Made by a program: the position numbers and the translations under genes. Source: an uncultured Oscillospiraceae bacterium (GTDB taxonomy: Bacteria; Bacillota; Clostridia; Oscillospirales; Oscillospiraceae). From it: a DNA stretch of 35,771 nucleotides. Below the pieces are notes generated by a model that saw only the letters and a program-made list of their open reading frames with translations, made no database searches and was not told where the DNA came from. Where the stretch lies: contig CATNCS010000020.1 of NCBI GenBank assembly GCA_950097245.1, positions 1 to 35,771 on the forward strand, in the 5' to 3' direction. Below, in pieces: positions 2,901 through 16,081 of this stretch (position 1 is the first letter of the stretch; every line of letters begins with the position of its first letter).

Positions 2901-2976
2901 TGGTGACCCGTCGGGGATTCGAACCCCGGACCCACGGCTTAAAAGGCAGTTGCTCTACCGGCTGAGCTAACGGGTC
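2901..2976 (-). tRNA. tRNA-Lys (anticodon TTT)
   Basis: 76 nt with encoded CCA. Acceptor GACCCGT pairs with ACGGGTC; D arm AGCTCAGCCGGTAGAGC; anticodon loop CTTTTAA (TTT); T arm CGGGGTTCGAATCCCCG. Last gene of the minus-strand tRNA cluster. Confidence 0.97.
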
Positions 2977-3028
2977 ATTTTTACATATTTAGAAAGTCAA
3001 ATGCGGACCTCGTTTCCGGCTGACGCCG

Positions 3029-3123
3029 GGCAGTTGCTCATCTCGCCGCCAAGTGCCGCTGTGCGGCGGTTGCGGCTCGAAACGCCCGCCTGCGGGCGGG
3101 TGTACCAACTGAGCTAACGGGTC
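3029..3123 (-). pseudogene. Broken tRNA-Lys-like gene with an insertion
   Basis: On the minus strand 3123-3101 reads as a tRNA 5' part (GACCCGT acceptor strand, TAGCTCAGTTGGTA D arm) nearly identical to tRNA-Lys. About 61 bp of palindromic sequence then intervenes (3040-3100, with CCGCCCGCAGGCGGG and related hairpins). The next 11 nt, GAGCAACTGCC (3029-3039), match tRNA-Lys where it should resume. No anticodon loop, T arm or 3' acceptor follows. It lies between tRNA-Gln and the intact tRNA-Lys and is transcribed with them. The simplest reading is a tRNA-Lys duplicate disrupted by a hairpin-rich repeat. Confidence 0.6.
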
Positions 3124-3174
3124 AAGTATGCAATTTTGCAGGAGAACCTCCTCCGGGCCGCCGCAGGCGGCCCC

Positions 3175-3281
3175 CCAAAACACAAACCAGCGAAGCGTTT
3201 GTGTTTTGGAGAGGAGGAGCAGCGGAATGAGCGAGCTTTCGGCGCAAGCCGGAAGCGAGGGATATGGAGCTTGCGACGACG
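3175..3281 (-). repeat. tRNA-adjacent hairpin repeat, copy 2 (after tRNA-Gln)
   Basis: Starts directly after the CCA of tRNA-Gln with CGTCG, as copy 1 does after tRNA-Lys. It has the 13-bp stem (3175-3187 with 3197-3209), the identical loop CAGCGAAGC, the shared GGAGGAGCAGCGGAATGAGCG segment (about 3212-3232), and a GCTTTCGGC/GCCGGAAGC hairpin at 3235-3256. Unlike copy 1 it lacks the T tract, so transcription can continue to tRNA-Lys. Confidence 0.7.
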
Positions 3282-3356
3282 TGGCAGGGATGGCTGGACT
3301 CGAACCAGCGGATGAGGGAGTCAAAGTCCCTTGCCTTACCACTTGGCTACACCCCT
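3282..3356 (-). tRNA. tRNA-Gln (anticodon TTG)
   Basis: 75 nt with encoded CCA. Acceptor AGGGGTG pairs with CATCCCT (one G-T pair), discriminator G; anticodon loop CTTTGAC (TTG) on an AGGGA/TCCCT stem; T arm GCTGGTTCGAGTCCAGC. Confidence 0.96.
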
Positions 3357-3376
3357 GTATCAACGGGGAAAGGCTT

Positions 3377-3400
3377 GGGCCGGAGCAGAAGCTCCGGCCC
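3377..3400 (-). other. 10-bp perfect hairpin in the Gln-His tRNA spacer
   Basis: GGGCCGGAGC and GCTCCGGCCC with an AGAA loop lie between tRNA-His and tRNA-Gln. There is no T tract, so it is more likely an RNA-processing or spacing element than a terminator. Confidence 0.6.
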
Positions 3401-3413
3401 TGCCGCCTCAATG

Positions 3414-3491
<78 letters not shown>

Positions 3492-3525
3492 ATATCACTG
3501 ATGTCCGGTCACCCCTGAAGCTGGC

Positions 3526-3602
3526 TGGCACGCCTGGAGGGACTCGAACCCCCGGCCCGCTGCTTAGAAGGCAGCTGCTCTATCCACCTGAGCTACAGGC
3601 GC
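3526..3602 (-). tRNA. tRNA-Arg (anticodon TCT)
   Basis: 77 nt with encoded CCA. Acceptor GCGCCTG pairs with CAGGCGT; anticodon loop CTTCTAA (TCT) on GCTGC/GCAGC; T arm GGGGGTTCGAGTCCCTC. It reads AGA/AGG codons. Confidence 0.96.
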
Positions 3603-3605
3603 ATT

Positions 3606-3679
3606 TGGAGCGGGTGATGGGAATCGAACCCACGCGACCAGCTTGGAAGGCTGGGATTCTACCATTGAACTACACCCGC
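3606..3679 (-). tRNA. tRNA-Gly (anticodon TCC)
   Basis: 74 nt with encoded CCA. Acceptor GCGGGTG pairs with CACCCGC; D arm GTTCAATGGTAGAA; anticodon loop CTTCCAA (TCC); T arm GTGGGTTCGATTCCCAT. First gene of the cluster, three bases upstream of tRNA-Arg. Confidence 0.97.
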
Positions 3680-11563: not shown

Positions 11564-11627
11564 GATTGAAAGGGCCGGCTTTCAGCCATACTAACTGTCA
11601 CTGACTGACGGAAGGATGGCGAAGCGT

Positions 11628-13985
11628 ATGAAAGCTGTCATTATGGCGGGCGGGGAGGGCACCCGGCTGCGGCCCCTGTCCCTGGGCGCCCCCAAGCCCA
11701 TGACCCCCCTGCTGGGGCGGCCTGTGATGGAGCACATCATCAACTTGTTAAAGGCTCACAGGATTACCGACATCTGCGTCACCCTGTGCTACAAGCCCCA
11801 GATGATTATGGACTGTTTCGGCAGCGGGGACCGGCTGGGGGTGCGGCTGACCTGGTTTGTGGAGGAGGAGCCCCTGGGGACGGCGGGCAGCGTGAAGAAC
11901 TGCATGGGCCACATAGGCGACGAGGACTTTCTGGTCATTGGCGGGGACTGCGTCTGCGACCTGGACCTCACCGCCCTGGCAAGCTTCCACCGGACCCGGA
12001 GCGCCCGGGCCACCCTGGGCCTCTACCGCCACCCCAACCCCCTGGAGTACGGCCTGGTGCTCACCGGCGGGGACGGCCGGGTGGAGCGCTTTGTGGAGAA
12101 GCCGGGGTGGGGCCAGGTGTTTACCGACCAGATCAACACGGGAATCTATGTCCTCTCCCCCGCCGCCATGGACCGGGTGCCCCAGGGCACGGCCTTTGAC
12201 TTCGGCAGGGACCTGTTCCCCGCCCTGCTCCGGGAGGGCGCCCCCCTGTACGGCCTGCCCCTGGAGGGTTACTGGCGGGACATGGGGGACTGCGGCGCCT
12301 ATCTGGACTGCGCCTGCGACGCCCTGTCCGGCAAGGTGCGGCTGGATATGGGCCTGCCCAAGCGGGAGGCGGGGGTGTGGTCCGCCCGGCCCCTGCCCCA
12401 GGGGCTGAACCTGGTGCCCCCCTGCTGGATTGGCGAGGGGGTGTCTCTGGGGGAGGGCTGCCTCATCGGGCCCCACACCGTGCTGGAGCGAAACGCCCGG
12501 GTGGGGGACCGGTCCATGGTCCAGCGGTCCATTCTGCTGGAAAACGCCGCCGCCGGAGAGCGCTCCACCCTCTACGGCGCCATCCTGTGCCGGGACGCCT
12601 CCGCCCGAAGGGGGGCGGTCCTCAACGAGGGGGCCGTGCTGGGGGAGAACGCCCTGGCGGAGGAGGGGGCCACCCTGCTGGAGCGGGTGCGCCTCTGGCC
12701 CGGGCAGACCGCCCCCGCCGCCTGCCGGCTGGCCCGGTCCATCACCAGCGGAAGCCAGAAGGGGGTGCTGCGCTTTGGAGACAGCGGCGCCATCCGGGGG
12801 GTGCTGGGGGAGGACATAGGTCCGGAGGCCCTGCTCACCCTGGGAAGCCTCCTGGGGAGAGAGGGCCCGGTGGGCCTGGGCTGCTCCCCCACCCCCGGCG
12901 CCGGAATGCTGGCCCGTGCCGCTGCGGTAGGGGCGGCGGCGGCGGGGAGCGAGGTGCTCACCCACTCCCTCACCAGCCCCGTCCAGGGGGCGGGGGCGGC
13001 CGCCATTCACCAGCTGCCCGTCTCCCTCTTTGTAGAGGAGAGCGAAAATACCGTCTTCCTCCACTTCTTTGACAAAAACGGCCTGCCCCTGGGCCGGACC
13101 CGGGAGCGGAAGCTGGAGCACGCCCTCCTCCAGGGGGAGGTGCGCCGCACCCGGGGGGACAAGGTGGGCCGACTGGGGCGGCTGGAGCTCTCCCAGGAGC
13201 AGTGGGCCAGGGAGGTGGCGGAGAGCGCCTCCCTGCGCCGGCCCGCCCTGCGGAGAGTGACCGTGGCGGTGGGGGACGCCACGCCGGAGGACCGGGCACT
13301 GCGGGAGGCCCTGTCCGCCCTGGGCTGTAAGCTGGAAAAGGAGTGGCGGCCGGGAATTGCGGCCTTTCACGCCCGGCGGGGGGGCTTCTCCCTCACCGCC
13401 CGGGACGAGGGGGGCGCGCTGGTGGATGACGGCCAGCTGCTGGCCCTGGTCTGCCTCATTGAGATGGAAAACGGCTCGGGCAAGGTGGCCGTCCCCGCCT
13501 CGGCCAGCGCGGCGGTGGAGCTGGTAGCCGCCGGCTACGGCGGAACCGTCCTCCGGCTGGACCGGGACGGGGATCAGGCGCAAGAGCTCTACGCCGCCCG
13601 GCCCTGGCTGCGGCAGGCCCCGGCAGCGGCGGTGCGCATCTGCTCCCGGATGGCAGTCTCCGGCCAGAAGCTGGAGGCCCTGGTGGCCAAGACCCCCCGC
13701 TTCTCCTCCTGGCGGCGGGAGGTGCCCCTCACCTCCGACCGGGGGCGGGTGATGCAGGCCCTGGCCCGGGAACAGGCCCGTCAGCCCTCCGGAGAGGGCC
13801 TGCGGATGCGCACCGGCAGCGGCTGGGTGTACCTCACCCCCATCGCCCGGCGGTCCGCCCTGCGGGTGATCGCCGAGGGCCCCGACCTGGAGCTGGCCGC
13901 CGAGCTGTGCGACTTCTACGCCGGCCGGGCGGCGGAGGTGGACCGGTCTCTTTCTGAGCAATGTGCCCAAGAAGGGGACAAATAG
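11628..13985 (+). CDS. Sugar nucleotidyltransferase / left-handed beta-helix / degenerate phosphomannomutase fusion
   Basis: 785 aa. Residues 1-235 are a sugar-phosphate nucleotidyltransferase (MKAVIMAGGEGTRLRPL, FVEEEPLGTAGSV, VIGGDCVCDLDL, VEKP, INTGIYVL), probably mannose-1-phosphate guanylyltransferase-like. Residues about 262-360 are hexapeptide repeats of a beta-helix. From about 383 a phosphohexomutase-like region starts with RFGDSGAIRG (the FGTSGxRG relative). The catalytic phosphoserine loop (TASHNP type) is absent: its place reads SLFVEESENTVFLHFF. The metal loop DGDGDR is only LDRDGDQ. The second half is therefore probably non-catalytic. Start at 11628 gives the family N-terminus; the ATG at 11616 abuts the GGAAGG ribosome site. 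Likely role: activated sugar supply for surface glycans. Confidence 0.85.
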   Translation: MKAVIMAGGEGTRLRPLSLGAPKPMTPLLGRPVMEHIINLLKAHRITDICVTLCYKPQMIMDCFGSGDRLGVRLTWFVEEEPLGTAGSVKNCMGHIGDEDFLVIGGDCVCDLDLTALASFHRTRSARATLGLYRHPNPLEYGLVLTGGDGRVERFVEKPGWGQVFTDQINTGIYVLSPAAMDRVPQGTAFDFGRDLFPALLREGAPLYGLPLEGYWRDMGDCGAYLDCACDALSGKVRLDMGLPKREAGVWSARPLPQGLNLVPPCWIGEGVSLGEGCLIGPHTVLERNARVGDRSMVQRSILLENAAAGERSTLYGAILCRDASARRGAVLNEGAVLGENALAEEGATLLERVRLWPGQTAPAACRLARSITSGSQKGVLRFGDSGAIRGVLGEDIGPEALLTLGSLLGREGPVGLGCSPTPGAGMLARAAAVGAAAAGSEVLTHSLTSPVQGAGAAAIHQLPVSLFVEESENTVFLHFFDKNGLPLGRTRERKLEHALLQGEVRRTRGDKVGRLGRLELSQEQWAREVAESASLRRPALRRVTVAVGDATPEDRALREALSALGCKLEKEWRPGIAAFHARRGGFSLTARDEGGALVDDGQLLALVCLIEMENGSGKVAVPASASAAVELVAAGYGGTVLRLDRDGDQAQELYAARPWLRQAPAAAVRICSRMAVSGQKLEALVAKTPRFSSWRREVPLTSDRGRVMQALAREQARQPSGEGLRMRTGSGWVYLTPIARRSALRVIAEGPDLELAAELCDFYAGRAAEVDRSLSEQCAQEGDK

Positions 13986-14073
13986 CGGTATATCTGTTCT
14001 TCTGAAACGCATAGTATACTTTTGGGGCAAAGTGTGGTAAACTATGATTATCTATTGTGGCCTTTTGGGCCAT

Positions 14074-14150
14074 TGTAGGGGCGGATACCATCCGCCCGCA
14101 ATCCGGAGGCGGACTATGACTCGAACGGGCGGCTAATAGCCGCCCCTACA
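14074..14150. repeat. TGTAGGGGCG two-hairpin dispersed repeat, 77 bp
   Basis: Ends TGTAGGGGCG and CGCCCCTACA, with inner hairpins GGCGGAT-ACC-ATCCGCC and GGGCGGCTAATAGCCGCCC joined by an unrelated linker. Same family as 4656-4705 and 32179-32427. It sits directly upstream of the structured RNase J leader. Confidence 0.75.
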
Positions 14151-14184
14151 GCCGAATTGTTAAAACGGATGCAATATTTGGTGG

Positions 14185-14390
14185 ATTTAAACGCCAAAGG
14201 GGCTGGGAGAAGACCTCCCGCCCCGGCGTCTAAATATATTTCCCGGCCCCGAACCGTAGGACAGGCGGGAACGGACTGAGGAGCAAAAACGACAGAAGCC
14301 CCATAATCAGGCGAAGGGATCGCGCACCCCAACCGGCGAGGCAGGGCCGGAGGGGGACGGTCCTTCGTCTGGTTGCTGTGGGGCTCTGTC
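14185..14390 (+). ncRNA. Structured leader RNA upstream of RNase J
   Basis: About 205 nt with three hairpins seen by eye. H1 (14185-14235) is a long stem built from ATTTA, ACGCC, GGGGC and GGGAG paired with CTCCC, GCCCC, GGCGT and TAAAT. H2 (14240-14271) pairs TTCCCG-GCC with GGC-GGGAA around the loop CCGAACCGTAGGACA. H3 (14291-14390) is a 100-nt rod from GACAGA/TCTGTC through GCCCCA/TGTGGGGC and CAGGCGAAGG/CCTTCGTCTG to an apical CCGGC/GCCGG. There is no terminator T tract, so it is continuous with the rnj mRNA, whose ribosome site is 21 nt downstream. Could be an autoregulatory leader or a riboswitch-class RNA; no class was recognised with certainty. Confidence 0.5.
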
Positions 14391-14422
14391 AGGATACATC
14401 AATTTTGAAAAAAGGAGTTATC

Positions 14423-16081
14423 ATGGCAGAAAAACTGAAAATTATTTCCCTTGGCGGTCTCAACGAGATCGGCAAGAACCTCACCGTATACGAGTACGGA
14501 AACGACATCATCGTGGTGGACTGCGGCATGGGCTTCCCCGACGACGACATGTACGGCATCGACGTGGTCATCCCCGACGTCACCTACCTCATCAAGAACC
14601 AGAGCAAGATCCGGGGCATCTTCATCACCCACGGCCACGAGGACCACATCGGGGCCCTGCCCTACGTGCTGCGGTCCATCAACGCCCCCATCTACGCCAC
14701 CCGCATGTCCGCCGGCCTCATCAAGCTGAAGCTGGAGGAGCACCGCCTGCTGGACCGCACCAGGCTGGTCACCTGCGAGGCGGGCCAGATTGTCAAGGCG
14801 GGCAAATTCACCGTGGAGTTCATCCACGTGAACCACTCCATCGCCGACGCGGTGGCCTTTGCCATCAAGTGCCCGGTGGGCACCTGCGTCCACACCGGCG
14901 ACTTCAAGATCGACGCCACCCCCATCCAGGGGGGCATGATGGACCTGGCCCGGCTGGGCGAGCTGGGTAAGGAGGGGGTCCTGGCCCTGCTGGCCGACTC
15001 CACCAACGTGGAGCGCTCCGGCTACACCCGCTCCGAGCGCAGCGTGGGCGCCTCCTTCGACGGTCTGTTCCGGGGCTGTGAGGAGCGCATCATCGTCACC
15101 ACCTTCGCCTCCAACGTGGACCGCATCCAGCAGGTCATCGACGTGGCCGCCCGGTACGGGCGAAAGGTGGCCGTCACCGGCCGGTCCATGGAGAACGTGA
15201 TGAAGGTGTCCTCCGAGCTGGGCTATATGAACATCCCCGACGGCATCCTCATGGACCTGAACCACATCAAGTCCCTGCCCAAGAGCCGGGTGTGCATTAT
15301 CACCACCGGCAGCCAGGGGGAGACCATGTCCGCCCTCACCCGCATGGCCTTCAACACCCACCGGCAGGTGGACCTGCTCCCCGGCGACCGGGTGATTATC
15401 TCCGCCTCCGCCATTCCGGGCAACGAAAACGCCATCGGCAACGTGGTCAACGAGCTCTACCGCAAGGGCGTGGAGGTGATGAACGAGCGGGAGCTGACCC
15501 TCCACGTCTCCGGCCACGCCTGCCAGGAGGAACTGAAAATCGTCCACGCCCTGGTCAAGCCCAAATTCTTCGTCCCTGTCCACGGGGAACAGCGGATGCT
15601 CCAGATCCACGCCAAGCTGGCCCGGCAGATGGGGATGGACCCCAACCACATCCTCATCAGCGACATCGGCCGCGTGATGGAGTTCACCCCCAATTCCGCC
15701 AAAATCACCGGCACCGTCACCGCCGGGCAGGTCTTTGTGGACGGCTACGGCGTGGGCGACGTGGGCAGCGTGGTGCTGCGGGACCGCCGCCACCTGGCCG
15801 AGGACGGCATGATTGTGGTGGCACTGTCCATGTCCGGGGAGGACGGCGCGCTGGTCTCCGGCCCGGACATCATCACAAGGGGCTTCGTCTACGTGAAGGA
15901 GTCCGAGGGGCTCCTGGAGGAGCTGCGCCAGGTGGCCCTGGAGGCCCTCCAGCACGTGGATACCCGCTACGCCACCGACTGGTCCGCCATCAAGGGGGCC
16001 ATCAAGGGCGACCTGTCCGGCTACCTGTACAAGAAAACAAAGCGCTCCCCCATGATCCTGCCTGTTATCATGGAGGTGTGA
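14423..16081 (+). CDS. rnj: Ribonuclease J
   Basis: 552 aa, the normal size. Metallo-beta-lactamase/beta-CASP nuclease with 5'-to-3' exo- and endonuclease activity, central to mRNA decay and rRNA processing in Firmicutes. The zinc motif HGHEDH is at 70-75, with HVNHSIAD, HTGDFKID and LLADSTNVE following. The beta-CASP region contains TTGSQGETMSAL, and VSGHACQEEL and FVPVHGEQRML complete the active site. The C-terminal domain is present. ATG at 14423 follows AAAAGGAG by five bases. It is preceded by a long structured leader and ends in a strong terminator, so it is monocistronic. Confidence 0.96.
   Translation: MAEKLKIISLGGLNEIGKNLTVYEYGNDIIVVDCGMGFPDDDMYGIDVVIPDVTYLIKNQSKIRGIFITHGHEDHIGALPYVLRSINAPIYATRMSAGLIKLKLEEHRLLDRTRLVTCEAGQIVKAGKFTVEFIHVNHSIADAVAFAIKCPVGTCVHTGDFKIDATPIQGGMMDLARLGELGKEGVLALLADSTNVERSGYTRSERSVGASFDGLFRGCEERIIVTTFASNVDRIQQVIDVAARYGRKVAVTGRSMENVMKVSSELGYMNIPDGILMDLNHIKSLPKSRVCIITTGSQGETMSALTRMAFNTHRQVDLLPGDRVIISASAIPGNENAIGNVVNELYRKGVEVMNERELTLHVSGHACQEELKIVHALVKPKFFVPVHGEQRMLQIHAKLARQMGMDPNHILISDIGRVMEFTPNSAKITGTVTAGQVFVDGYGVGDVGSVVLRDRRHLAEDGMIVVALSMSGEDGALVSGPDIITRGFVYVKESEGLLEELRQVALEALQHVDTRYATDWSAIKGAIKGDLSGYLYKKTKRSPMILPVIMEV

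Follow-up and report, generated by a model that had tools for sequence, protein, structure and literature searches.

A conserved leader RNA dedicated to the RNase J gene and its possible role in autogenous control

Some ribonucleases are known to be controlled through the leaders of their own messenger RNAs (mRNAs): the leader of Escherichia coli RNase E has a stem-loop that the enzyme binds, and RNase E is autoregulated through the rne 5′ untranslated region (UTR), and Bacillus subtilis RNase Y cleaves its own 5′ UTR and is regulated through it, as described in excerpts of PMC10303841. In Gram-positive bacteria, RNase J is central to RNA decay. Here we describe a strongly structured RNA in front of rnj, the RNase J gene, on a 35,771-nucleotide (nt) stretch of DNA from an uncultured Oscillospiraceae bacterium; this whole stretch is the window, its genome is called G000, and all positions are numbered within it. 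The sequence pattern leads us to read the segment as a cis-acting leader RNA of a class dedicated to rnj, most likely serving autogenous control by RNase J, a reading to which we give a probability of about one half.

A conserved fold upstream of rnj

A previous sequence-only reading of this DNA had proposed three strong hairpins upstream of rnj, and all three were recovered: a 51-nt hairpin at 14185–14235, a rod at 14291–14390 and a smaller one between them. The perfect terminal complementarity that had been claimed for the rod holds for its last six bases; over 11 nt, its end arms (GACAGAAGCCC/GGGGCTCTGTC) are 82% complementary. The features of the locus are the following.

14010–14046, + strand: promoter-like dyad CATAGTATAC...GTAAACTATG, a conserved inverted repeat with a single match in the window against 0.00 expected
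14074–14150, no strand assigned: imperfect inverted repeat TGTAGGGGCGG...CCGCCCCTACA, between the promoter-like dyad and P1
14185–14235, + strand: P1 hairpin, with an outer stem (14185–14195/14225–14235) and an inner GC hairpin (14199–14224)
14243–14281 (about), + strand: P2 domain, near-invariant GAACCGUA..ACAGGCGG, found in the genus only
14291–14390, + strand: P3 domain, the 100-nt rod, with a closing stem of GACAGA (14291–14296) and TCTGTC (14385–14390)
14305–14374, + strand: P3a rod, with arms 14305–14317/14362–14374
14333–14350, + strand: apical hairpin CCGGC-GAGGCAGG-GCCGG, with the octaloop at 14338–14345
14395–14400, + strand: tail TACATC, the genus form of an order-wide TACATA element
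14412–14417, + strand: Shine–Dalgarno sequence AAGGAG, identified by eye and aligned in 30 relatives
14423–14432, + strand: rnj start codon region ATGGCAGAAA, complementary to the P3 3′ strand in many genus members
14423–16081, + strand: rnj, encoding RNase J (552 amino acids; TIGR00649, 616.5 bits against a cut-off of 400)

The leader is widespread in the genus of the window species. A DNA similarity search found it in 44 of 64 genus genomes, and 30 aligned loci share the blocks GATTTAAACGC, GAACCGTA..ACAGGCGG, GACAGA, the rod, TCTGTC, TACATC and AAGGAG..ATGGCAGAAAA. An 83-pair structure was fitted to 26 of these loci, each from a different species (alignment A1; L005, L007, L018 and L021, which have no clear tail, were omitted), and 84.8% of its cells are paired. 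Both sides have changed in 36 pairs, against 24.4 in shuffled and 18–24 in slid controls, and the covariation score is 0.180, against 0.126 in shuffles that leave kinship among the species in place and 0.062–0.093 when slid. Helix 1 (P1) is paired in 99.2% of cells across the 26 species, the outer stem keeping a conserved A·C mismatch, and seven of the eight pairs of helix 4 (P2) have changed on both sides somewhere; helix P3b is absent from the window species and its nearest relatives. The covariation that the sequence-only reading had proposed to look for among related rnj leaders is present, and the structured leader that it proposed is indeed a conserved RNA with compensatory changes.

A covariance model (R1) found the leader in 55 of the 64 genus genomes, 57 of which have a detectable rnj; 26 of the 55 had supplied the model, the other 29 being its independent part. 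All 55 best matches lie on the same strand as rnj, −15 to 102 nt upstream of it. Two genomes with rnj and no R1 match, G012 and G015, carry what is by eye a recognisable variant of the leader (L261, L260).

The fold is also unusually stable. Positions 14182–14400 have a folding energy of −110.2 kcal/mol, against −80.6 for shuffled sequence (z = −6.15), and 14166–14440 gives z = −5.6; none of 200 shuffles was as good. The reverse strand of the region is likewise stable (z = −5.1), so that energy alone does not choose the strand of the RNA. No terminator-like site was found in 13900–14500, hence none between the structure and rnj, which agrees with the earlier statement that no terminator follows the hairpins.

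A promoter downstream of 14390 would have refuted the earlier reading; the conserved promoter-like dyad lies upstream, at 14010–14046. It includes an extended −10-like TGTGGTAAACT at 14033–14043, a dyad of the same shape (GTATACTTTT..TGTGGTATACT) lies 5′ of the leader in relatives and in other genera, and TATACT and GTATAC are enriched among 97 leaders of the family. A sigma-70 consensus scan called no + strand promoter; a promoter at the dyad is thus suggested by conservation and not by a consensus match, and the rnj transcript would, from the position of the dyad, start just upstream of P1. The inverted repeat at 14074–14150 is missing between dyad and P1 in several relatives, for example L010, L012 and L020, and is probably a lineage-specific insertion. 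Similar GTAGGG..CCCTAC elements lie near the leader at varied places in L002, L014 and L018, a picture that would suit repeated insertion of mobile elements.

A 21-nt piece of the P1 inner hairpin (14204–14224) has exact copies at G000:C10:5945-5965 and in other genus genomes, and because of this recurrence the inner hairpin may have been recruited from a common element. We rejected a dispersed repeat (repetitive extragenic palindrome or miniature inverted-repeat transposable element) as the identity of the leader: G000 has one R1 match and one exact copy of the apical hairpin core, although the 21-nt P1 piece does recur.

Exclusivity to rnj and the octaloop rod

We ran a general model (R3) on 160 whole genomes of the family, which we take to be Oscillospiraceae in GTDB terms. 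At E ≤ 0.001 it gave 62 matches, of which 60 lie upstream of rnj by coordinates and one, in G212, lies at a contig end directly before rnj. The sole match away from rnj, in G219, is antisense within a gene that by its look is presumably a tRNA-dihydrouridine synthase, and is probably due to chance. At E ≤ 0.01, 67 of 81 matches are linked to rnj by coordinates; four weaker off-site matches inspected by eye (L427–L429 and L431) lie in long open frames, none of them rnj. Genomes outside the R3 training set gave 25 matches at E ≤ 0.001; coordinates place 24 of them at rnj, and the other is the one at the contig end. In whole-genome searches the leader RNA is thus exclusive to rnj, and it sits in the 5′ region of that gene.

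Other searches gave the same association. The genus model matched in 37 of 400 family genomes, spanning 14 of 106 genera, and RNase J lies downstream at all 25 further loci from the genus and family searches (L066–L090). When a model of the rod was searched through the order, it matched in 15 of 394 genomes, all of the same family and all 15 loci with RNase J downstream. An exact scan of named genomes for CCGGCGAGGCAGGGCCGG found at least 118 stretches. Among the 80 matches listed, RNase J is directly downstream in 40, including Flintibacter muris, Pseudoflavonifractor, Colidextribacter, Lawsonibacter, Flavonifractor and Intestinimonas; another 38 have no RNase J downstream (37 from other phyla and one, L136, from a Bacillota bacterium), and L115 and L118 are too short to judge. 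Of the 38 further stretches, only those with both loop and RNase J (for example L173, L181, L206 and L207) joined later alignments.

Outside the genus, the rod keeps an octaloop of the form C-[G N N N C R G G]-G. To follow it without regard to RNA matches, rnj upstream regions were sampled in four sets: a first 60, a further 40 within the family, 60 across the order outside that family and 40 at class level. The first 60 were hand-picked, nearest relatives first and then spaced, and five of their genomes were already matches of an earlier model, R2. Leaving aside L245, which is mostly N, 59 survey leaders were counted; 35 of them, with four genus genomes included, have a hairpin with the loop GNNNC[AG]GG and at least four closing pairs. 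The reverse strands of the 59 gave none, and shuffled sequence 1.16. The motif was defined on this survey, and its proper test is the held-out family leaders (omitting L284, a duplicate of genome G207): 19 of 39 carry the hairpin, against 0 of 39 on the opposite strand and 0.65 when shuffled, and with at least six closing pairs the count is 12 of 39, against 0 on the reverse strand and 0.05 shuffled.

The loop is thus kept on a stem that changes freely. Rod stem sequences are wholly different between genera (GCTTCGC/GCGAAGC against ATATCCGC/GCGGATAT, for example), while the closing pair is C–G in 52 of 54 octaloop leaders. Stem pairs 5 and 6, which were not selected for, are paired in 43 of 54 and 43 of 53 leaders and include all six pair types. 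Across 48 aligned octaloop sequences the covariation score of 0.590 compares with 0.206 after shuffling and no more than 0.235 after sliding, the first four pairs being largely met by selection; the leaders behind R2 and R3 were chosen for the loop (those behind R3 also for at least four stem pairs), so their loop letters and first four pairs were met by selection.

A second conserved element lies right after the structure and before the Shine–Dalgarno sequence. Of all hexamers upstream of rnj, TACATA, UACAUA in the RNA, is the most strongly enriched, both in the family (47 of 97 leaders against 2.9 expected, and 17 on the reverse strand) and in the order outside it (32 of 60 leaders against 3.5 expected, and 5 on the reverse strand); the class sample shows no enrichment (2 of 40 leaders). 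Judged by eye from its letters, it is unlikely to be a −10 promoter element.

Leaders elsewhere differ in several ways. In another family of the order (f13), L324–L326, L332, L335, L336 and L339 share a quite different conserved leader, with a GTACAAAT promoter, GACGGTGC or GTGTTT blocks and AAAGGAAAGTGAT before the start, which is possibly a second class of rnj leader. Outside the genus, L071–L087 have AAGGAGTGT about 15 nt before the ATG and a conserved AAGACTTTTATG-like spacer, an unusually long Shine–Dalgarno distance that a small hairpin may shorten; the gap from AAGGAG to the ATG in the window is five bases. What appears to be a Lys-rich coding extension precedes the aligned RNase J start in L346, L354, L363–L365, L370, L372–L378 and L381, all from other families of the order, and one genome has a cobalamin riboswitch (RF00174, 43.5 bits) 5′ of rnj on the opposite strand (L279, 134–288, − strand). 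In the window itself, the gene 5′ of the leader (11616–13985) encodes a product similar to sugar-phosphate guanylyltransferases and phosphomutases, and five clustered tRNA genes (Lys, Gln, His, Arg and Gly) lie at 2901–3679 on the − strand.

Proposed autogenous control and its alternatives

Dedication to one gene whose product acts on RNA, together with a fixed loop on a free stem, is why we favour autogenous control. On this reading, the mRNA would begin shortly before P1 and keep the folded leader. RNase J, when plentiful, or a degradosome partner would recognise the rod with its GNNNCRGG octaloop, and the rnj mRNA would be cut in the UA-rich, seemingly single-stranded UACAUA, or else blocked or degraded from its 5′ side, with the outcome that less RNase J is made. 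The earlier suggestion that RNase J binds and cuts its own leader is partly supported, the pattern being that expected of autogenous control; the binding and cutting themselves we infer. A wider and more tentative proposal is that the RNA class gauges 5′–3′ RNA-decay capacity across the order, the octaloop rod docking RNase J, UACAUA acting as a processing point and the leader coupling RNase J activity to the life or translation of its own mRNA, with P2 and start-codon pairing as output modules of the genus.

In the genus alone, the P3 3′ strand could also pair with the start codon region and so couple opening of the leader to translation. In many species this strand reads UUUUUCUGUC, a complement of GACAGA as well as of the rnj start region AUGGCAGAAAAA. 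Across 32 genus loci (L030 and L067 left out), its longest complement in the start region averages 9.59, against 6.50 shuffled, and 18 of the 32 leaders beat all 20 shuffles. Folding predicts that P3 and the start-region pairing are near-balanced in the window species, with a P3 probability of 0.49; the mean is 0.66 among those of 29 folded leaders in which the motif was found (L030, which has no usable rnj motif, was omitted). Because start pairing is enriched in the genus and not elsewhere, and the folds are near-balanced in the window species, a translational switch is a lineage-specific possibility.

Several observations weigh against autogenous control through these elements. About half of the family leaders lack the strict octaloop, and beyond the family it is missing from all 60 order leaders, whose reverse strands gave three, while the one class leader of 40 that has it, at −321, looks like a chance match. 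RNase J itself is found in 195 of 197 order genomes and 115 of 118 class genomes; the octaloop is absent from related families that have the enzyme, and RNase J therefore does not need it. Other genera show no enrichment of start-codon pairing (7.77 against 7.44 shuffled; 93 of the 95 family leaders were used, and 6 of them beat all 20 shuffles), and in the order one leader of 60 does so. Comparison of 44 leaders does not support pairing between UACAUA and the 5′ strand of P1, own tails averaging 6.35 and foreign ones 5.99 (p = 0.11, mean rank 0.50). Finally, at well-paired positions of A1, G–U cells exceed A–C cells modestly, 67 to 46, which makes for a modest signal of the strand.

Of the other explanations, the least unlikely is that rnj expression is set by a different protein bound to the octaloop, either a degradosome partner (RNase Y, PNPase, a helicase or a KH-domain protein) or a ribosomal protein. 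A fixed octaloop on a changing stem is what a protein site typically looks like, and the place of UACAUA next to a hairpin is in line with the RNase Y sites, UA-rich and flanked by structure, in the excerpts of PMC10303841, but the exclusive link to rnj points first to RNase J itself. Next in line, and already improbable, comes a riboswitch, in which a small molecule (a nucleotide that signals RNA turnover, for example) bound through P2 or the octaloop would control rnj; the long conserved single-stranded motifs (the octaloop and GAACCGUA..ACAGGCGG) and the near-balanced folds of the window species would suit it. Metabolite riboswitches usually control several genes, however, and whole-genome searches associate this RNA with rnj only, which weakens the riboswitch that the sequence-only reading had offered as its alternative; P2, moreover, is limited to the genus, and no Rfam family matches.

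A strong structure near the 5′ end might act passively, barring 5′ exonucleases, RNase J included, from the rnj mRNA. The very stable fold and the position of P1 near the promoter-like dyad in many relatives are in keeping with this, but invariant loop letters and UACAUA are not explained by stability alone, and we regard it as quite improbable. We think just as poorly of a transcription attenuator, in which the rod followed by a U-tract would terminate transcription unless disrupted: among 50 family leaders, of which three belong to the genus, 37 have a T-run after the loop and 11 have one before it, but the run often stands several bases off the stem, and the window has no GC stem with a U-tract and no other terminator-like site. 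Attenuation is possible in family leaders and is not evident in the window. Very improbable indeed is a separate small RNA, for example another 6S-like one, that only happens to adjoin rnj; size and strong structure are similar, but the genome has its own 6S RNA elsewhere, no terminator separates the leader from rnj, and the distance to rnj is held at −15 to 102 nt in 55 of 55 cases. The leader is not 6S RNA itself, having no RF00013 match, and the 6S RNA of the genome scores 72.6 bits at its own site. The Rfam search that had been proposed was run: no Rfam 15 family matches over the window leader, E values up to 10 giving only chance matches to microRNAs, and nothing in Rfam 15 was found over the rnj leaders of 18 diverse loci.

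Comparison with described leaders

In the literature covered, the main texts of open papers, no conserved cis element controlling an RNase J gene is described, and RNase J, ribonuclease and rnj do not occur in the text of PMC8040213, PMC11109978 or PMC8632094; the leader is possibly a nameless entry in a large candidate list, such as the supplement of PMC8040213. We file it as a new RNA class of a familiar kind, the cis leader of an RNase gene. With this dedicated, conserved leader present in many gut species that can be cultured, feedback control of RNase J can be tested directly, and an octaloop on a freely changing stem makes an RNA–protein recognition code readable from evolution.

Leaders of ribosomal protein genes offer one parallel, as RNAs found only in front of the gene of their presumed binder; the rnj leader likewise precedes one gene only, here that of an RNase. 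With 6S RNA (RF00013) it shares a length of about 200 nt and a rod-like shape; the two differ in genomic place, and RF00013 has no match to the rnj leader. The rne leader of E. coli is another parallel, as the structured leader of the gene for a main decay RNase with, in the excerpts of PMC10303841, a stem-loop bound by the enzyme; enzyme and RNA are different, and for the rnj leader we infer such binding. A further one is rny of B. subtilis, which in those excerpts is a Bacillota RNase gene regulated through its own 5′ UTR. There a 164-nt UTR is cleaved at many places, whereas the rnj leader is a conserved multi-domain structure in front of the gene for another enzyme; UACAUA, which is rich in UA and seems to lie unpaired next to structure, is similar to the RNase Y sites in the same excerpts.
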